Below are positions 7,202-47,315 of a stretch of 64,000 nucleotides of DNA, in pieces. Within the stretch, counting starts at the first letter, position 1, and each line of letters opens with the position of its first letter. The notes below the pieces were generated by a model. It worked only from the letters and a program-made list of their open reading frames with translations, made no database searches and was not told the origin of the DNA. Location of the stretch: the NCBI RefSeq assembly GCF_000153725.1, contig NZ_DS022279.1, positions 7,501 to 71,500 on the forward strand. The letters run 5' to 3'. This DNA comes from Salipiger bermudensis HTCC2601 (GTDB lineage Bacteria; Pseudomonadota; Alphaproteobacteria; Rhodobacterales; Rhodobacteraceae). The position numbers and the translations under genes are program-made.

Positions 7202-8005
7202 TCAGGTCATGGAAAGGCCACCGGCGACGTCGATCGTCTGGCCGGTGACAAAGCTCGATTCCGAGGAAGTCAGCCAGAGCGCCGTGTCGGCCACCTCAGC
7301 GGGCTCGCCAAGTCGGCCGAGCGGCGTGCGGCGCACCTCGGCCTCGTTCAGTTCGGCCGCCACCCCCGCCACCATCGGCGTCGCGATCCGCCCCGGTGCC
7401 AGCGCGTTCACGCGGATGCCGTGCGGGCCAAGCTCGCCCGCGAGGTGCTTGGTGAAGCCGATGATCGCCGATTTCGTCGCGGCGTAGTGGCAGGCGACGA
7501 TGGGAAAGTAGGTCTTGCCCGCCACCGAGGAGGTGTTGACGATCCACCCCCGCCCGGCCTCGACCATGGCGGGCGTCAGCGCCCGGATGCAGTTGAACGA
7601 GCCGGTCAGGTTCACGTCCACCACGCGGGCCCATTCGTCGGGGTCCATCTCCCAGACCTTGTGGGCCACGCCCGCGTGCTTGGGCGAGATCCCGGCATTG
7701 TTGATCAGCGTGTCGAAGGCGCCGCCCATCTCTGCCTCGGCCTGCGCGATGGCCCGCGTTAGGCTGACGTAATCGCTCACGTCGCCGGTCATCGCGACGC
7801 TGGCCCCGGGCAGGCCGGAAACGGCCGCCGCGACCTCGCCCGCGTCGATGTCGAGCACGCCCACGGTGGCGCCGCGCCGGGCGAAGGCCTCGGCCATGGC
7901 GAGCCCGATGCCCTTGGCCGCCCCGGTGACCAGCACCCGCCGCCCGGCATGGCTGTCCCGCGTCTCGTGTTGCGCGAGGGTCGTCTCTCGTACAGTCATC
8001 GTCAT
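7202..8005 (-). CDS. SDR-family NAD(P)-dependent oxidoreductase
   Basis: Classical short-chain dehydrogenase of 267 residues, oxidising or reducing an alcohol/ketone pair in the cytoplasm. TGAAKGIG forms the cofactor-binding turn, NNAG is present, the catalytic triad is Ser in NTSSVAG and Tyr/Lys in HYAATK, and the C terminus has the tetramer-forming VAGG. The start ATG overlaps the stop of livF (ATGA), and the deleted aldehyde dehydrogenase follows after 10 bp. In this operon it probably acts on the imported compound or a later intermediate. Confidence 0.92.
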   Translation of the reverse strand: MTMTVRETTLAQHETRDSHAGRRVLVTGAAKGIGLAMAEAFARRGATVGVLDIDAGEVAAAVSGLPGASVAMTGDVSDYVSLTRAIAQAEAEMGGAFDTLINNAGISPKHAGVAHKVWEMDPDEWARVVDVNLTGSFNCIRALTPAMVEAGRGWIVNTSSVAGKTYFPIVACHYAATKSAIIGFTKHLAGELGPHGIRVNALAPGRIATPMVAGVAAELNEAEVRRTPLGRLGEPAEVADTALWLTSSESSFVTGQTIDVAGGLSMT

Positions 8006-40973: not shown

Positions 40974-40986
40974 TGTCCCCTATTGG
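40974..40986 (+). repeat. Variant origin repeat TGTCCCCTATTGG
   Basis: Shares TGTCCCC with the two TGTCCCCCAATAT repeats downstream; its TATTGG is inverted relative to their CCAATA, giving a TATTGG/CCAATA inverted repeat with the next copy. Confidence 0.4.
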
Positions 40987-40994
40987 AGCGAAAA

Positions 40995-41007
40995 TGTCCC
41001 CCAATAT
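40995..41007 (+). repeat. Origin direct repeat TGTCCCCCAATAT, copy 1
   Basis: Identical 13-bp unit occurs again at 41027-41039, a spacing of 32 bp (three helical turns). Candidate iteron for the DnaA-like initiator. Confidence 0.55.
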
Positions 41008-41026
41008 GTGGCCTCGGCGATCCCCG

Positions 41027-41039
41027 TGTCCCCCAATAT
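41027..41039 (+). repeat. Origin direct repeat TGTCCCCCAATAT, copy 2
   Basis: Second copy of the 13-bp unit, same orientation; followed by another T. Confidence 0.55.
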
Positions 41040-41228: not shown

Positions 41229-41244
41229 TGTCCCCATGGGGACA
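41229..41244. repeat. parS-like palindrome 1 (centre AT)
   Basis: TGTCCCCATGGGGACA, perfect 16-bp palindrome, 60 bp upstream of parA. Candidate ParB-binding site. Confidence 0.65.
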
Positions 41245-41258
41245 GTCCCCGGGCGCAG

Positions 41259-41276
41259 CTGTCCCCGCGGGGACAG
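41259..41276. repeat. parS-like palindrome 2
   Basis: CTGTCCCCGCGGGGACAG, perfect 18 bp, just upstream of the parA ribosome-binding site; could let ParB autoregulate the operon. Confidence 0.7.
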
Positions 41277-41304
41277 AAAAGAGGGACCCCAGACAGGAGA
41301 GACC

Positions 41305-42609
41305 ATGTTCACCCATGACGACCTCGCGCAGATGCAGGCGCAATCCCTCAAGATGCAGAGCTGGATCCGGCAGCAGACCTTCTCGCCCGAGCTCGAGAAG
41401 CGGCTCAGACGGTTTTCAAGCTGGGAGGTGGCCGAGCTGATCCTGCAGGTCAACCAGTCGACCCTGCGGGGCCGCCTCGCCGCCGACCCCTCCCTGCCCC
41501 AGGGCCTCGTCGAAGAGGACGGCCGCCAGCGCTGGTACGCGCTGGAAGAGATCAACGAGATCCGCCGCAAGCTCAAGGTCAACCGCAAGAGCCTGATGCC
41601 GCCGCGCCCGGCAAACAAGCGCGCCTTCCGCGTGGCGATCTCGAACTTCAAGGGCGGCGCCGGCAAGTCGACCGTGGCGCTGCACTTCGCCCATGCGGCG
41701 GCGCTCGATGGCTATCGCGTGCTCTGCGTCGACTTCGACCCGCAGGCGACGCTGTCGCACTCCATGGGGCTCAGCGACGTCACCGAGGAGTTCACCGTCT
41801 GGGGCATCATGGCCCGCGACCTGATCCGCGAGACCGATCGCATGAACGCGGCGATGCACGGCGCCGAGAGCGGCTCCGCCCTGCCCCAGCGCAAGCTGCC
41901 CGAGGCGATCACCGGCATGGGGCTGCGCGACCTGCGGGTGACCGACTTCATCAAGCCCACCAGCTGGCCCACCATCGACGTCATCCCCTCCTGTGCCAAC
42001 GCCGCCTTCGTCGAGTTCGCCTCGGCGCAGTACCGTCACCTCAATCCCGAATGGTCGTTCTTCGCCGCGGTGTCGCGCTATCTCGATGCCCTGCCCCCGG
42101 ATGCCTACGACCTCGTCATCTTCGACTGCCCCCCGGCGATCGGCTACCAGAGCATGAACGCCGTCTTCGCCGCCGACATGCTCTATATCCCCTCCGGTCC
42201 CGGCTACTGGGAATATGACAGCACCACCTCCTTCATCGGCCAGCTCTCCGAAGCGCTCGCCGATCTCAGCGGCTTCGAGGGGGTTGTCCCCGCGGGGACA
42301 CTGCAATTGCCCAAGGTCTTTCAGGACGTGCGCTTCCTGCTCACCCGCTACGAGCCGGGCAACGAATTGCACCGCGCGATGCGTTCAGCCTTCCAGAAGG
42401 TCTGGGAGGACAGAGTGACCGACAACGCCATCGAGATGACCCGCGCGGTCGAACAGTCGGGTCGCTTCCTGAGCTCGATCTACGAGATCGACTATCGCGA
42501 GATGACCCGCGAGACATGGCGACGGGCGCGCACCTCTTTCGATCGCGCCTACGAGGAATTCCGCGGCCATGTGCTGACCGCGTGGGACCAGCTGGAGGAT
42601 GAGGCATGA
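41305..42609 (+). CDS. parA: Plasmid partition ATPase ParA
   Basis: 434 residues. An N-terminal extension with a helix-turn-helix (about 40-60, WEVAELILQVNQSTLRGRL) is typical of ParA/RepA of large alphaproteobacterial plasmids and suggests operator binding. The deviant Walker A is FKGGAGKST at 115-123; DFDPQATLSHSMG and VIFDCPPAIGYQ follow. It positions plasmid copies on the nucleoid together with ParB. The ATG at 41305 has AGACAGGAGAG upstream; an in-frame Met 23 codons earlier overlaps a palindrome. A parS-like palindrome inside the gene (42285-42300) encodes VPAGT near residue 328. Overlaps parB by 4 bases. Confidence 0.93.
   Translation: MFTHDDLAQMQAQSLKMQSWIRQQTFSPELEKRLRRFSSWEVAELILQVNQSTLRGRLAADPSLPQGLVEEDGRQRWYALEEINEIRRKLKVNRKSLMPPRPANKRAFRVAISNFKGGAGKSTVALHFAHAAALDGYRVLCVDFDPQATLSHSMGLSDVTEEFTVWGIMARDLIRETDRMNAAMHGAESGSALPQRKLPEAITGMGLRDLRVTDFIKPTSWPTIDVIPSCANAAFVEFASAQYRHLNPEWSFFAAVSRYLDALPPDAYDLVIFDCPPAIGYQSMNAVFAADMLYIPSGPGYWEYDSTTSFIGQLSEALADLSGFEGVVPAGTLQLPKVFQDVRFLLTRYEPGNELHRAMRSAFQKVWEDRVTDNAIEMTRAVEQSGRFLSSIYEIDYREMTRETWRRARTSFDRAYEEFRGHVLTAWDQLEDEA
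42285..42300. repeat. parS-like palindrome 3, inside parA
   Basis: TGTCCCCGCGGGGACA within the parA coding sequence, read as VPAGT. Confidence 0.7.
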
Positions 42610-43703
42610 GCAAGCGACGCGGTTTCGACATCGACTTTCCCGGCAATGCCGACGGGGTCTACACCGGCGCCAAACGCAAGGAAACGCCCGAGCCCGCCGC
42701 GCGCCCCGAGGGGCGCCGCGGCCCGATGGCGGCGGCGATCTCCGAGAACGCCGACGCGCTGCGCCAGCGCGCCGAGGCCGAGCGCGCCATCCGGGAAGAG
42801 AACGACCGGCTGGCGCATGAACACGTGCGGCTCAAGCGCGCCGGGCTGATCACCGACCTGATCCCGCTCGACGCCATCCGCATCGAGAAGCTGACGCGCG
42901 ACCGCGGCCCCGGACCCGACCCGGATATCGGCGAGCTGAAAGACTCTATTCGGGCGATTGGTCTCTCGAACCCGATCCAGGTCGAACCCTCCGGCGACGG
43001 CTACGAGCTGGTGCAGGGCTTCCGCCGCCTGCGCGCCTATCGCGAGCTTTACGCCGAGACCGGCGATGAGGCGTTTGCGAAGATCCCCGCCGGGTTGATT
43101 GCCACTGGGGCCGAGCTCGAGCAGCTCTATCGCCGCATGGTCGACGAGAACCTCGTGCGCCGCGACATCTCCTTCGCCGAGATGGCGGTGCTGGCGCTGC
43201 GTTATGCCGAGGATCCCGGCACATCGGCGGAGGATCTGGGCTCGGCGATCGACGTGCTGTTCGCGTCGGCGGGGCGGCAGAAGCGCAGCTACATCCGGCA
43301 TTTTGGATCGCTGATCGAACAGGTGGGCGACGCGCTGCAGCACCCGCAGGCGATCTCGCGCAATCTTGGGCTCGACCTGAACAAGCGGCTGGCTTCGGAG
43401 GACGGCTTCGAAGGGCGTCTGCGCGAGGCGATGGACGGGCAGGGCGAGGTCTCGCCCGACTACGAGGTGGCGGTGCTTCAGGACCTGCTGAAGTCGGCTC
43501 CAAAAGCGCCGAAGCCCCGCGCCGGCACGACGCGCAATGCCGCCGCCAAGACCACGCTGCGTTGCACTGTCCCCGCGGGGACAGTCCGATGCGCGGCGCG
43601 CGACGGCAAGGTCGAGCTGCAGATGGAGCGCGACTTTTCCAGCATCGACCGGCACCGGCTCGAGGCCGCTGTCGCGGCGTTCATGTCGGCGCTCGACGAC
43701 TAG
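42606..43703 (+). CDS. parB: Plasmid partition protein ParB
   Basis: 365 residues. The ParB N-terminal CTPase fold is recognisable: IPLDAIRIEKLTRDRG, then IGELKDSIRAIGLSNPIQVEP and the box ELVQGFRRLRAYREL, followed by ENLVRRDISFAEMAVLAL and a helix-turn-helix region. It binds centromere sites and spreads on DNA. It overlaps parA by 4 bases (ATGA). A parS-like palindrome lies near the 3' end (43567-43584), encoding TVPAGT about residue 321, in a linker-like stretch between the DNA-binding and C-terminal dimerisation parts. Confidence 0.93.
   Translation: MSKRRGFDIDFPGNADGVYTGAKRKETPEPAARPEGRRGPMAAAISENADALRQRAEAERAIREENDRLAHEHVRLKRAGLITDLIPLDAIRIEKLTRDRGPGPDPDIGELKDSIRAIGLSNPIQVEPSGDGYELVQGFRRLRAYRELYAETGDEAFAKIPAGLIATGAELEQLYRRMVDENLVRRDISFAEMAVLALRYAEDPGTSAEDLGSAIDVLFASAGRQKRSYIRHFGSLIEQVGDALQHPQAISRNLGLDLNKRLASEDGFEGRLREAMDGQGEVSPDYEVAVLQDLLKSAPKAPKPRAGTTRNAAAKTTLRCTVPAGTVRCAARDGKVELQMERDFSSIDRHRLEAAVAAFMSALDD
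43567..43584. repeat. parS-like palindrome 4, inside parB
   Basis: CTGTCCCCGCGGGGACAG, perfect 18 bp, inside the parB coding sequence and read as VPAGT, as in parA. Confidence 0.7.
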
Positions 43704-43812
43704 GTTGGGCTGACTGCGAGCCTGTTGCAGGGCGGCGTCACGGGGAACCGGGCGCCGCCCTTTGTCTTTGCCGGGCCGGGATTGAGGTCGGTGTCGTGGC
43801 GGTCGTCTGGGT

Positions 43813-43832
43813 GCTGTCCCCGCGGGGACAGC
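43813..43832. repeat. parS-like palindrome 5
   Basis: GCTGTCCCCGCGGGGACAGC, perfect over 20 bp; the longest copy, 110 bp after parB. Confidence 0.7.
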
Positions 43833-43880
43833 GCCGAGCAACGGGCATCATCATGGGATGACCCCTCCTCACGCGCGATC

Positions 43881-43896
43881 TGTCCCCGCGGGGACA
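43881..43896. repeat. parS-like palindrome 6
   Basis: TGTCCCCGCGGGGACA, perfect 16 bp. Confidence 0.7.
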
Positions 43897-43969
43897 AGAG
43901 CCTAAATCACGTCTCCGGCAGACCCTCCCGGCAGGACCAAATGCTCTCAAACAGGCATGCCCGGACCGC

Positions 43970-43985
43970 TGTCCCCGCGGGGACA
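43970..43985. repeat. parS-like palindrome 7
   Basis: TGTCCCCGCGGGGACA, perfect 16 bp. Confidence 0.7.
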
Positions 43986-44047
43986 TGTGACCGTAGGCGC
44001 GGCCTGGCGTCGTCAGGCTGGCTGTCGAAACGGCGCCGAAAAGAGGA

Positions 44048-44063
44048 TGTCCCCGTGGGGACA
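44048..44063. repeat. parS-like palindrome 8 (imperfect centre)
   Basis: TGTCCCCGTGGGGACA; both 7-bp arms match, only the two central bases break the symmetry. Confidence 0.6.
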
Positions 44064-44220: not shown

Positions 44221-45525
44221 TCAGACGCGGATGCCGTAGCGGCTGACCTTGTCGTTGAGTGTGCGCCGCGCCATGCCGAGCGCCTTGGCGGCGCGTTCGG
44301 TGTTGCCGCGGCAGCGCTCGAGCGCGAGGCGGATCTCGCGCGCCTCAAAGGCAGCCACCCGCGCGGCAAGGCTCTCGGGCTCGGCGCTGGGGGCGGCGGA
44401 CCCCTCGGGCAGGTCGAGCCCAAGCGCGAAGCGCTCTGCCAGCGCCTTCAGTTCGCGGACATTGCCCGGCCAGGCCCGGCGCTGCAGCCGCTGGCGCAGC
44501 GTGTAGTCGACCTTGGGCGTCTCGCGCCCGTAGCGCGCCGCGGCGAGCGCGGCGTAATGGCTGAACAGCAGCGCGATGTCGTCGCCGAGAACGCGCAGCG
44601 GTTCGACCGCGATCTCTGCGCCGGCGAGACGGTAGAACAGGTCGGCCCGGAAACTGCCATCGAGCGTCAGCGGCCTGAGGTCGGTCTTCGAAGTGGCGAT
44701 GATCCGCAGGTCGAGCGGGCGAAGCCGGTTCTCGCCCAGCCGTTCGACGCTGCGTTCCTGCAAGGCGCGCAAGAGCTTGGGCTGGATCGCGGCGGGCATG
44801 GCCTCGACCTCGTCGAGCATCAATGTGCCGCCCGAGGCCGCCTCGAGCTTGCCGGGCTTGTCCTGCGCGCCGGGAAAGGCGCCGGCGACATGGCCGAAGA
44901 TCTCGATCTCGAACAGGCTCTCGGGCAGGGCGGCGCAGTTGACCGCCACGAAGGGGCCACCGGCACGCGGGCCGGCGGCGTGCAGGGCGCGGGCGACAAG
45001 CTCCTTGCCGGTGCCGGTCTCGCCGGTCACCACCACGTCGAGATCGGTGGGGCCGATGGCGTTGATGCGGGCGCGCAGCGTGGCCATCGCGGCAGACTGG
45101 CCCAGCAGACCGCCCTCGTCGCGGCGGGTGATGCGCTCCTGCAGGCGGCCGATCTCGGCGCGGGCGGCACGGTTGCGCAGGCCCCGCTCGATCACCGTCA
45201 GCAGGTGCATCCCGTCATAGGGCTTCTCGAGAAAATCCTCGGCACCGGCGCGCATCGCCTGCACCGCCTGCGCCAGATCGCCATGCCCCGAGATCAGCAC
45301 GACGGGGCAGTCGGGGTCGCGGTCGCGGGCGGCTTCGAGCAGTTGCTGGCCGTCGATGCCGGGCATCCTGAGATCGGTCAGGATCAGGTCGGGGCGGCTG
45401 GTCGCAGCAAGGGCGGCGGCACCGTCGGGGAAGGCCTCGGCGCGGTGGCCGGCGGCCTCGATCAGGTCGCAGAGCGCCACGCGATGGTCGCGGTCGTCTT
45501 CCACGACGTGGATCAGCGGGCTCAT
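44221..45525 (-). CDS. DctD-like sigma54-type response regulator
   Basis: 434 residues: receiver domain 1-120 (phospho-Asp in LILTDLRMPGIDG, VLISGHGD, EKPYD), AAA+ domain about 140-370 (Walker A GETGTGKE, Walker B TLMLDEVEAMP, RRAWPGNVREL), and a C-terminal FIS-type helix-turn-helix (NTERAAKALGMARRTLNDKV). The loop that contacts sigma54, normally GAFTGA, reads GAFPGA. The ATG at 45525 overlaps the kinase stop by 4 bases. With the kinase it should control the TAXI-TRAP transporter of the same operon. Confidence 0.92.
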   Translation of the reverse strand: MSPLIHVVEDDRDHRVALCDLIEAAGHRAEAFPDGAAALAATSRPDLILTDLRMPGIDGQQLLEAARDRDPDCPVVLISGHGDLAQAVQAMRAGAEDFLEKPYDGMHLLTVIERGLRNRAARAEIGRLQERITRRDEGGLLGQSAAMATLRARINAIGPTDLDVVVTGETGTGKELVARALHAAGPRAGGPFVAVNCAALPESLFEIEIFGHVAGAFPGAQDKPGKLEAASGGTLMLDEVEAMPAAIQPKLLRALQERSVERLGENRLRPLDLRIIATSKTDLRPLTLDGSFRADLFYRLAGAEIAVEPLRVLGDDIALLFSHYAALAAARYGRETPKVDYTLRQRLQRRAWPGNVRELKALAERFALGLDLPEGSAAPSAEPESLAARVAAFEAREIRLALERCRGNTERAAKALGMARRTLNDKVSRYGIRV

Positions 45526-47315
45526 TCGGCGGCCTCCTGCGTGTCGTCCCGTGCCAGCAGCGGCAGGATCACCGCCACCTCGGTGCCCGCGCCGGGGGCC
45601 GAGCGGATGTCGAGCCGTCCGCCGAATTGCTGAACCACCTCGAAGCAGATCGCAAGCCCGAGGCCGAGCCCCTCGCCGCCGACCTTGGTGGAGAAGAACG
45701 GCTCGGCGATGCGCGGCAGCACGTCGGGCGCGATGCCGGGACCGTTGTCGCCGACCCGCAGGGTGACCTCCTGCGCGGTGCACTGGATCGAGAGTGTGAC
45801 CTCGCCCTCTCCGGGCACCACCGCCTCGATGGCGTTGTGCAGCAGGTTGACCAGAACCTGTTCGAGCCGGGCGTGGCCGGCCTCGACCCGCGGCGCGCTG
45901 TCCGCGGGCGCAAAGCGCAGCGCGACCCCCGCCGCGTCGGCGCGGGGCTGCGCCAGCGCCAAGGCCGAGCGCGCCACGTCGGTCACCTCGACCGGCGAGA
46001 GTGGCGCCACCTCGCGGCGGGAAAAGTTCTTCAGATGCTTGGTCATGCGTTGCATCCGGCGGATCAGACCGCGCGCCGAATGCAACCGCGCGGCGGTCTG
46101 CTCAGGGGCCCGCGACAGGCCGAACTCGGCGGCGGTGAGCGTCGCCTCCATGGCGGCAAGGGGCTGGCTGACCTCGTGCACGATGGCGGCGGACATGCGC
46201 CCGAGCGCGGCCATCTTCTCGGACTGCACCAGCGTCGCCTGCATGGCGCGCAGATCCGCCTCGACCTGCCGCCGGGCCTCGATCTCGCGCGCCAGCTCGG
46301 CGGTGCGCTGGCGCACCTTGCGCTCCATCACCTCGGTCTGGCGCAGCCGCAGCGCGATCAGTCGCCGCCGGTGCCGCCGCATGTCGGCGAGCCCGAGACC
46401 CAGCAACCCGGCCAGCAGTGCCAGCGCGGCGGTGGCAAGGCCGGCGGCGCGGGCGGGCCAGACCGGCGTGGCGGCAAGCAGGCGCCAGCCGTTTTCGAAC
46501 GGCGTGCCGCGCAGGGTCGTGGCGCGGCCCTTGCCGTTGAGCGACAGCTCGGAGCCTTTGGGCAGCAGCGGTGTGGCGCCGGGCAGGTCGGTGCGGGCGT
46601 AGAGCCGCGAGTCCGCGAGCCGGGCGAGGGTGGGCGCGGGCAGGGCGGTGAGCGGGCGGTAGCGCCAGCCATCCACCGAGGTCAGGAACACCACCTCGTC
46701 GCGGTCGGTGACGGCGATGTGCTGGCCGGTCTCGGCCCAGGCCCGTTCGAGCGGGCGCAGGTCGATCTTGACGACGACGACGCCCTGCACGTCGCGGTCG
46801 GGGTCGTCGATGCGGGTGGCGATGAAGTAGCCGGGCTCGCCGGTGGTCACGCCGACGGCATAGACCGCGCCGGTGCCGGTGTCGCGCGCCTCGGTGAAAT
46901 AGGGGCGGAAGCTGTAATCGTGGCCCACGAAACTGCCGGGCGCGGCCCAGTTCGAGGAGGCGAGGGTGAGGCCGGCCTCGCTCAGCAGGTAGAGCTGGCC
47001 CGAGCCGGTCTGGCTGGCGATCTTCTGCAGGTAGCGGTTGGCCGCATCGATGGCGGCGGCATCGTCCGGCGTGGCGAGGGCGGCCCGGATGCGGGCATCC
47101 TCGCCGGCCACGCGGGGCAGGGCGCGGAAGCGGTCGATCTCGGTCTGCAGGGCGCGGTGGCTGACCAGCAGGCCCTGCTCGAGCCCCTGCCGCAACTCGG
47201 CCAGCACCAGCTGCCAGGCCAGCGCACCGCAGAGCAGCGCCCCGAGCGTCACCAGCACCAGCCGCAGGCGCCAGACCGAGCGCAGCCGCGGCAGCAGGGA
47301 GGCGCGGCGCGGCAT
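45522..47315 (-). CDS. DctB-like sensor histidine kinase
   Basis: 597 residues. Transmembrane helix near 18-38 (LVLVTLGALLCGALAWQLVL), a periplasmic double-PAS sensor (about 40-290, with YSFRPYFTEARDTGTGAVYAVGVTTGEPGYF), a second helix near 300-325, a coiled segment, then HisKA with the phospho-His in AAIVHEVSQPL and HATPase motifs LLHNAIEAV, VGDNGPGI, GLGLAICFEVV. This is the DctB layout for sensing small carboxylates outside the cell. The ATG at 47315 overlaps the DUF1850 stop by one base. Confidence 0.92.
   Translation of the reverse strand: MPRRASLLPRLRSVWRLRLVLVTLGALLCGALAWQLVLAELRQGLEQGLLVSHRALQTEIDRFRALPRVAGEDARIRAALATPDDAAAIDAANRYLQKIASQTGSGQLYLLSEAGLTLASSNWAAPGSFVGHDYSFRPYFTEARDTGTGAVYAVGVTTGEPGYFIATRIDDPDRDVQGVVVVKIDLRPLERAWAETGQHIAVTDRDEVVFLTSVDGWRYRPLTALPAPTLARLADSRLYARTDLPGATPLLPKGSELSLNGKGRATTLRGTPFENGWRLLAATPVWPARAAGLATAALALLAGLLGLGLADMRRHRRRLIALRLRQTEVMERKVRQRTAELAREIEARRQVEADLRAMQATLVQSEKMAALGRMSAAIVHEVSQPLAAMEATLTAAEFGLSRAPEQTAARLHSARGLIRRMQRMTKHLKNFSRREVAPLSPVEVTDVARSALALAQPRADAAGVALRFAPADSAPRVEAGHARLEQVLVNLLHNAIEAVVPGEGEVTLSIQCTAQEVTLRVGDNGPGIAPDVLPRIAEPFFSTKVGGEGLGLGLAICFEVVQQFGGRLDIRSAPGAGTEVAVILPLLARDDTQEAAE

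Follow-up and report, generated by a model that had tools for sequence, protein, structure and literature searches.

Eight copies of a short palindrome stand in and around the parAB genes of Salipiger bermudensis HTCC2601, two of them within coding sequence, which raises the question of whether they are the centromere (parS) sites of this module and whether their spread through genes is an oddity of one replicon. The DNA analysed (the window) is a 64-kb stretch, positions 7,501 to 71,500 of the forward strand of contig NZ_DS022279.1, and the module is the parAB of a DnaA-like plasmid of Rhodobacterales. Judged by comparison with relatives, the eight palindromes very probably make up the parS array of this plasmid's ParABS system; one of them occupies a fixed place inside parA in most of the family, where its arms covary and fit two residues of ParB.

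The palindrome array in the window and in the genome

An exact scan of the 64 kb for TGTCCCCNNGGGGACA gave exactly eight matches, at the positions in Table 1, and none in any of 100 dinucleotide-preserving shuffles, in line with the eight copies listed by the earlier note. Allowing up to three mismatches added a single place (61872, three mismatches), so the word is indeed absent elsewhere in the window; the loose count itself, nine observed versus 4.16 expected, is weak on its own. As first read, six cores are identical, with centre GC, and two differ in the central bases (AT at 41229 and GT at 44048), and the length of the perfect palindrome with its flanks lies between 16 and 20 bp, being 16 bp at five sites, 18 bp at 41260 and 20 bp at 43568 and 43815. 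Two sites are upstream of parA, one is within parA (+980), one within parB (+962) and four in the gap 3′ of parB. The whole genome (5.48 Mb, six contigs) contains 13 exact copies, 8 of them within 2.8 kb, so that the palindrome is not equally common genome-wide; the remaining five are on the same contig (one, C3:119887), C5 (two) and C6 (two). A genome scan with WGWCCCCNNGGGGWCW, a pattern covering 16 arm combinations that are alike in composition, returned the same 13 places and zero for the other 15 combinations, and the five copies away from parAB thus exceed the yield of like-composed words.

A palindrome at a fixed place inside parA

A tblastn search with the window ParB found 604 plasmid records. 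The sample of 202 loci, in all of which both parA and parB were recovered, comprises the window, 12 plasmid loci (from 60 listed of the 604), 80 genome-contig loci (the best 80 of 404) and 109 loci from the 292 genomes searched in the order (29 returned, the window's own L108 excluded, plus 80 hand-chosen stretches). Loci with a ParB score of 380 or more formed a core of 174, 155 of which were left below 95% parA DNA identity, and 28 loci were more distant. Since the parA site of L125 was unreadable, parA-site counts refer to 154 core loci.

The 16-mer ending with parA codon 332 has all seven arm pairs in 118 of these loci, six in 20, five in 9 and fewer in 7; 138 of the 154 thus have six or seven pairs at this one codon position. 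The mean of 6.55 pairs is the highest of 1257 parA positions (next, 5.40; overall mean, 1.85), and none of the 28 more distant loci reaches six pairs at this place. The palindromy is not that of one frozen word: the sequences found are TGTCCCCGCGGGGACA (78 loci), CTTCCCCACGGGGAAG (13), CTTACCCACGGGTAAG (7), CTTCCCCGCGGGGAAG (6), TTTCCCCGCGGGGAAA and TGTCCCCGCGGGGACG (5 each), CTTATCCGCGGATAAG (3) and others. The arms covary, pair 1 being T-A in 89 loci, C-G in 37, G-C in 5 and unpaired in 23, pair 2 G-C in 106, T-A in 42 and unpaired in 6, and pair 4 C-G in 128, A-T in 13, G-C in 3 and unpaired in 10; the three runner-up parA positions mostly show a single pair type per arm pair.

Palindrome type follows two residues of ParB

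The palindrome in parA is of the same type as those elsewhere in its locus, with 308, 52, 15, 9 and 8 copies on the diagonal versus three off it (12 untyped loci excluded). On a ParB tree built by a quick method, with several weak forks and flagged long branches, the five palindrome types lie almost cleanly, requiring 5 changes (minimum, 4; shuffled mean, 39.4). The ParB column scoring highest for palindrome type is 224: all 102 TGT-type loci have R there, and the 41 loci of the other four types never do.

We also determined the dominant palindrome of each locus without using the parA type, which was feasible in 142 of 175 loci (the 155 core loci and 20 RepB-like ones). Residues 224–225 fit the dominant arm in 140 of the 142, with K-V allowed two near-identical arms: R-Q occurs with TGTCCCC (85 loci) and GTTCCCC (2), Y-Q with CTTCCCC (21), Y-T with CTTACCC (7), P-Q with TTTCCCC (5), K-M with GTAACCC (5), K-T with GTTACCC (5), K-Q with GTTCCCC (4), K-V with GTTACCG (2) and GTTACCC (2), Y-S with CTTATCC (3) and Y-N with CTTCCCC (1). 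In the other 33 loci no repeated palindrome outnumbers all the rest; among them, one P-V locus has a single TTTACCC, which fits a rule whereby residue 224 goes with the outer bases and 225 with the fourth base, and four Y-S loci have a single CTTACCC, both arms or neither. Of the genomes typed later, all but G010 obey the rule, namely G174 and G218 (R-Q, TGTCCCC), G168, G273, G281 and G287 (Y-Q, CTTCCCC) and G237 (K-Q, GTTCCCC). The specificity contacts of ParB/Noc given in the parts of PMC7383237 drawn on here are G170, K171, S172 and R173; reading the KRSYI motif against them would place residues 224–225 where the recognition helix begins. The RepB-like distant kin (L190–L209) carry GTAACCC, GTTACCC or GTTACCG palindromes, mostly right after parB, that track K-M, K-T and K-V.

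Palindrome type tracks ParB type at the level of single loci and, for the most part, of whole genomes, and the candidacy of the palindromes as parS, proposed in the earlier note, gains strong support from this comparison. Their spread through coding sequences, which that note considered unusual, is real and not peculiar to this plasmid, being kept in relatives: the fixed place in parA, the covarying arms and the fit to ParB together indicate that the embedding is old and co-evolving.

Sites at other places of the module

Allowing at most one mismatch in the 102 TGT-type loci, we found the parA site in 91, a parB N-terminal site in 50 and a parB C-terminal site in 51, the last in one reading frame in all 51; all 101 parB sites are in the V-P-A-G-T frame. 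A site lies within 600 bp 5′ of parA in 70 of 86 loci and within 1000 bp 3′ of parB in 71 of 99. In 22 loci a site starts 25 bp before parA, which suggests autoregulation, and palindrome 2 of the window could likewise be an operator too.

A proposed centromere built into the partition genes

We propose that a ParB dimer of the RepB/ParB family would bind each 16-bp dyad by its helix-turn-helix, loading on the plasmid at the palindromes and then spreading, and that ParA would move the resulting ParB–DNA complex. The array itself is built into the partition genes, at one fixed place in parA and two in parB, where the DNA site dictates a short peptide (V-P-A-G-T in the window). Upon a switch in ParB specificity the palindromes of the module, including that in parA, switch along, and the sites just before parA may also serve autoregulation. 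A centromere anchored to particular codons of the gene for its own motor would be hard to part from that gene by recombination, and the module offers a natural record of joint change in ParB and its site. Should the two-residue rule hold, ParB sequence would predict the compatibility group for these plasmids as well as for part of the RepB kind.

Several points weigh against this proposal. Fewer than six arm pairs remain at the parA place in 16 of 154 loci, the GTTCCCC loci L166, L168, L173, L178 and L185 lack GTTCCCC there and use other places, and the parB C-terminal site is missing in 51 of 102 TGT-type loci. Two R-Q loci, L181 (genome G177) and L185 (G161), have GTTCCCC palindromes, and G010, typed later and outside the 142, is Y-S with a CTTCCCC palindrome. 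Because each locus was typed by its parA site, two mismatches at most being tolerated, L181 was counted as TGT although its other palindromes are GTTCCCC, and 12 loci were put aside as 'other' when parA and locus types were compared. The sampled loci are related, so that counts are not independent events and the tree needs only about five switches; the residue rule, moreover, was derived from these very loci and is no advance prediction. In L181 and L185 a family-like parA with a mismatched TGT-like site lies beside a more distant ParB, a pattern that would be expected after parB exchange.

Replicase sites or coding constraint as alternatives

The palindromes might instead be additional replicase binding sites, controlling copy number by titration or handcuffing, inasmuch as three direct repeats upstream of the replicase, TGTCCCC(C)AATAT at 40974, 40995 and 41027 (TGTCCCCTATTGG, TGTCCCCCAATAT), start with the heptamer of the palindromes. 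These repeats recur in relatives, with spacings alike in the 19 loci printed. Isolated forward upstream half-sites, however, stay TGTCCCC where the palindromes switch with ParB, numbering 37 in 19 CTT loci, 20 in 10 CTTA loci, 8 in 4 CTTAT loci and 11 in 6 TTT loci. Since such half-sites do not follow ParB, remaining TGTCCCC whichever of the five palindrome types a locus has, the repeats are probably not parS; most likely they are replicase sites of the DnaA-like origin, and we consider it very unlikely that the palindromes are. Within the TGT clade, to which the window belongs, iterons and parS have the heptamer in common and cross-talk between them is possible.

That the intragenic palindromes are a by-product of a conserved VPAGT peptide, which 97 of the 154 loci do encode at the parA place, is most improbable given the codons used and the changes of peptide: of these 97 loci, 82 use ACA for Thr (10% in the remainder of these parA genes) and 95 use GGG for Gly (22% in the remainder), the peptide turns into FPAGK, FPTGK, LPTGK or LSADK in other loci while the DNA stays palindromic, and ParB proteins whose gene lacks the site lack the peptide as well (L022, L024). 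A changing peptide with constant palindromy is as expected of a DNA site kept palindromic at the expense of the protein.

Copies away from parAB

Of the five remote copies in the source genome, that at C3:119887 lies between tripartite ATP-independent periplasmic (TRAP) transporter genes, C5:258666 in a resistance–nodulation–division (RND) transporter gene (VPAGT), C5:619004 in a maltooligosyl-trehalose synthase-like gene, C6:789130 in a phosphoesterase gene (VPAGT) and C6:4008891 in a cysteine desulfurase-like gene (genes named by our own reading). For four of the five, a congener has the word at the orthologous place, as judged from nine loci of G039 and G066 picked for holding it, and both congeners have the plasmid cluster.

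Among the 292 genomes of the order, the TGT word occurs in 36, the corresponding CTT word in 34 and both in one. An R-Q ParB was read in 37 genomes, 34 of which hold the TGT word. In the first typed set, 32 of 35 R-Q genomes hold TGT and one holds CTT, and 20 of 20 Y-Q genomes hold CTT and none TGT, as do four Y-Q genomes typed later in holding CTT. G117 has the TGT word, its ParB residues 224–225 not having been read, and the 254 genomes without a matching ParB read hold one TGT copy in total, in G150, with a non-palindromic centre. The CTT word is also found in G142 (Y-A), G254 (Y-N), G010 (Y-S) and G162 (R-Q, one copy), and its association with a matching ParB is less clean than that of TGT.

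In some genomes copies are numerous: G259 has 97 TGT copies, 10 in the 10-kb parAB stretch and 87 outside, G181 has 28, 10 on the parAB contig and 18 off it, and G174 has at least 13 away from parAB (copy positions for G259, G174 and G285 are those among the matches listed). Six G285 loci, selected for their copy of the word, each align at 92–96% with a locus of G181. Canonical chromosomal parS words would put the origin region near C1:2,464,400 in G259 and C1:4,103,559 in G181. The G259 copies among the matches listed spread over the 2.5-Mb contig C1 plus C2, C3 and C4 with no visible crowding at the origin, and the 15 C1 copies of G181 seem, by eye, to lean to the origin half. Exact palindromes on main chromosomes or large contigs were seen in the plasmid-bearing relatives G259 (L218–L232, L255), G181 (L233–L247) and G174 (L254, L256–L263), several of them paired 22–34 bp apart.

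This scatter is what might suggest a dispersed repeat, of the repetitive extragenic palindrome (REP) or miniature inverted-repeat transposable element (MITE) kind, that crowds at parAB by chance, which we regard as scarcely credible for the TGT word. By eye, the flanks of remote copies look unrelated in 35 loci (30 of G259 and G181, five of the source genome), and no longer unit around the copies, as expected of REP, REP doublets forming hairpins (REPIN) or MITE, was seen in them; the CTT copies of G272 differ. In 20 genomes of the G259 genus, glmM has the exact site in 7, one mismatch in 2 and none in 11; in these 11 the peptide is VPAGE, VPAGD, VAATD or similar, and 9 align gapless over the site and 2 with gaps, so that substitution is the simplest origin of the word in this gene. 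Two genomes whose glmM is without the site, G169 and G230, have no TGT copy and no ParB match among the matches listed. TGT copies, furthermore, accompany R-Q ParB, with two large exceptions to such pairing for the CTT word (G237 and G286). In G272, off-cluster CTT copies (L264–L267) are the middle of a more extended palindrome, AAC-CTTCCCCGCGGGGAAG-GTT, in some cases accompanied by runs of T; the AAC...GTT extension is present in 6 of 6 read, and these may be terminators or another repeat or element.

A tentative idea, to which we give rather less than even chances, is that in some hosts the plasmid ParB is a chromosome-wide DNA-binding protein, with the parS word planted by selection at many places, on the main chromosome as well as on other replicons. 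Counting against it, G150 holds a TGT copy without a close ParB, G040, G062, G211 and G248 hold one CTT copy each, and G162 holds one despite its R-Q ParB. G237 has 58 CTT copies, its intact ParB being K-Q with GTTCCCC palindromes and a second ParB match having two internal stops, and G286 has 10 with no ParB match at E 1e-20; these two cases (with loci L299 and L337) may reflect a lost partner or an unrelated element. In G012, G051, G098, G117, G145, G192, G212, G218, G221 and G246 TGT copies are near parAB alone, and the scatter is therefore not universal. Two copies, L236 in an Obg-like gene of G181 (VPVGT) and L015 in the cysteine desulfurase-like gene of the source genome (SPWGH), look like ordinary conserved peptides and may be coincidental. 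If bound, the chromosomal copies would mean that a plasmid partition protein has gained a role on the host chromosome; were the idea true, it would organise, mark or regulate that chromosome, somewhat like Noc, or couple plasmid and chromosome segregation.

Genes of the locus and replicon type

The parA product scores above the cut-off of Pfam AAA_31 and the parB product slightly under that of ParB_N (24.2; cut-off, 26.3), and their matches to the RepA and RepB partition models of NCBIfam fall below the curated cut-offs. The two genes overlap by 4 bp in a single operon, so a Walker ParA and a ParB are encoded together with several dyad sites nearby that are kept in relatives, as in ParABS systems. 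Among the named entries of the tree sample, Salipiger bermudensis has the closest ParB (95% identity over 360 columns). Upstream of parAB, adjoining and divergent as in DnaA-like plasmids, is the replicase gene, whose 227-residue product had no match to Pfam and NCBIfam at E 0.001; it is 63% identical to its counterpart in Aliiroseovarius sp. M344 and 65% identical to a 'DnaA N-terminal domain-containing' protein of Leisingera methylohalidivorans plasmid NC_023136.1 (L026). The latter plasmid, of 285,395 bp, fits in size pMeth_A285, classed as DnaA-like I in a part of PMC3910702.

Table 1. Predicted parS sites and other features of the module, in window coordinates.
Feature	Coordinates	Strand	Basis
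Replicase, DnaA-like plasmid type, 227 aa	40045..40728	−	Identity to annotated plasmid proteins
Three direct repeats starting TGTCCCC; probable replication iterons	40974..41039	+	Relatives
parS palindrome 1 (predicted), centre AT; 76 bp 5′ of parA	41229..41244	no strand	Exact scan
parS palindrome 2 (predicted); 45 bp 5′ of parA	41260..41275	no strand	Exact scan
parA, 434 aa, RepA-like Walker ATPase	41305..42609	+	Pfam AAA_31, NCBIfam RepA model
parS palindrome 3 (predicted), within parA, reads ..V-P-A-G-T	42285..42300	no strand	Family-wide codon position, covarying arms, atypical codons
parB, 365 aa, RepB-like; R224-Q225 beside KRSYI motif	42606..43703	+	Pfam ParB_N, NCBIfam RepB model
parS palindrome 4 (predicted), within 3′ part of parB, reads V-P-A-G-T	43568..43583	no strand	Relatives
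parS palindrome 5 (predicted)	43815..43830	no strand	Exact scan
parS palindrome 6 (predicted)	43881..43896	no strand	Exact scan
parS palindrome 7 (predicted)	43970..43985	no strand	Exact scan
parS palindrome 8 (predicted), centre GT	44048..44063	no strand	Exact scan
Next long gene after parB, reads as response regulator (own reading)	44221–45783	other strand	Own reading

Comparison with known systems

Petersen and colleagues reportedly proposed in 2011 (Mol Biol Evol) that the conserved palindromes of DnaA-like modules in Rhodobacterales are centromeric anchors, and the replicons they treated are of the same kind as that of the window. Centromere palindromes in such modules are already known, and so are parS sites inside open reading frames of repABC plasmids, at least from the parS sections of PMC9040568. 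We found no report of a covarying site embedded in parA, of the residue rule or of plasmid parS scattered on a host chromosome in the literature searched, which mostly leaves subscription papers outside, and a search on the palindrome letters turned up no partition paper.

As described in those sections, the parS of repABC is, like that here, a 16-bp dyad in several copies with a 3-4-GC-4-3 layout, and its copies within coding sequences were proposed by the authors to be positively selected (PMC9040568). The consensus there is GTTNNNNGCNNNNAAC, in contrast to the TGT...ACA arms of the window, although relatives with a K224 ParB do have GTT or GTA arms; the repABC replicase is RepC, and no repC-like reading frame follows parB in the window. 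The intragenic repABC sites named there are in open reading frames behind repC or where repB begins, and the sections on parS describe no fixed site in the ATPase gene such as that in parA here (PMC9040568). For RepABC plasmids of Rhodobacteraceae, passages of PMC5613091 present diagnostic palindromes as established ParB anchors, with a reciprocal change in the two arms marking a different compatibility group, and the arms covary here too; the replicon type is another one, and these passages mention no repA-internal palindrome. In ParB/Noc a few helix-turn-helix residues fix a 16-bp site, according to the parts of PMC7383237 used, much as residues 224–225 fit the palindromes here. The copies outside the plasmid have a parallel in the parS mimicry of Salmonella genomic island 1 (SGI1), which, in the portions of PMC10954446 consulted, involves two sites on one mobile island, versus many over the chromosome here. 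Finally, Noc, as portrayed in the relevant parts of PMC8429893, is a relative of ParB with sites around the whole Bacillus subtilis chromosome, comparable to the scattered copies here; it is a membrane-binding protein of Firmicutes, whereas the ParB of the window is encoded in a plasmid module and any function of the chromosomal sites is hypothetical.

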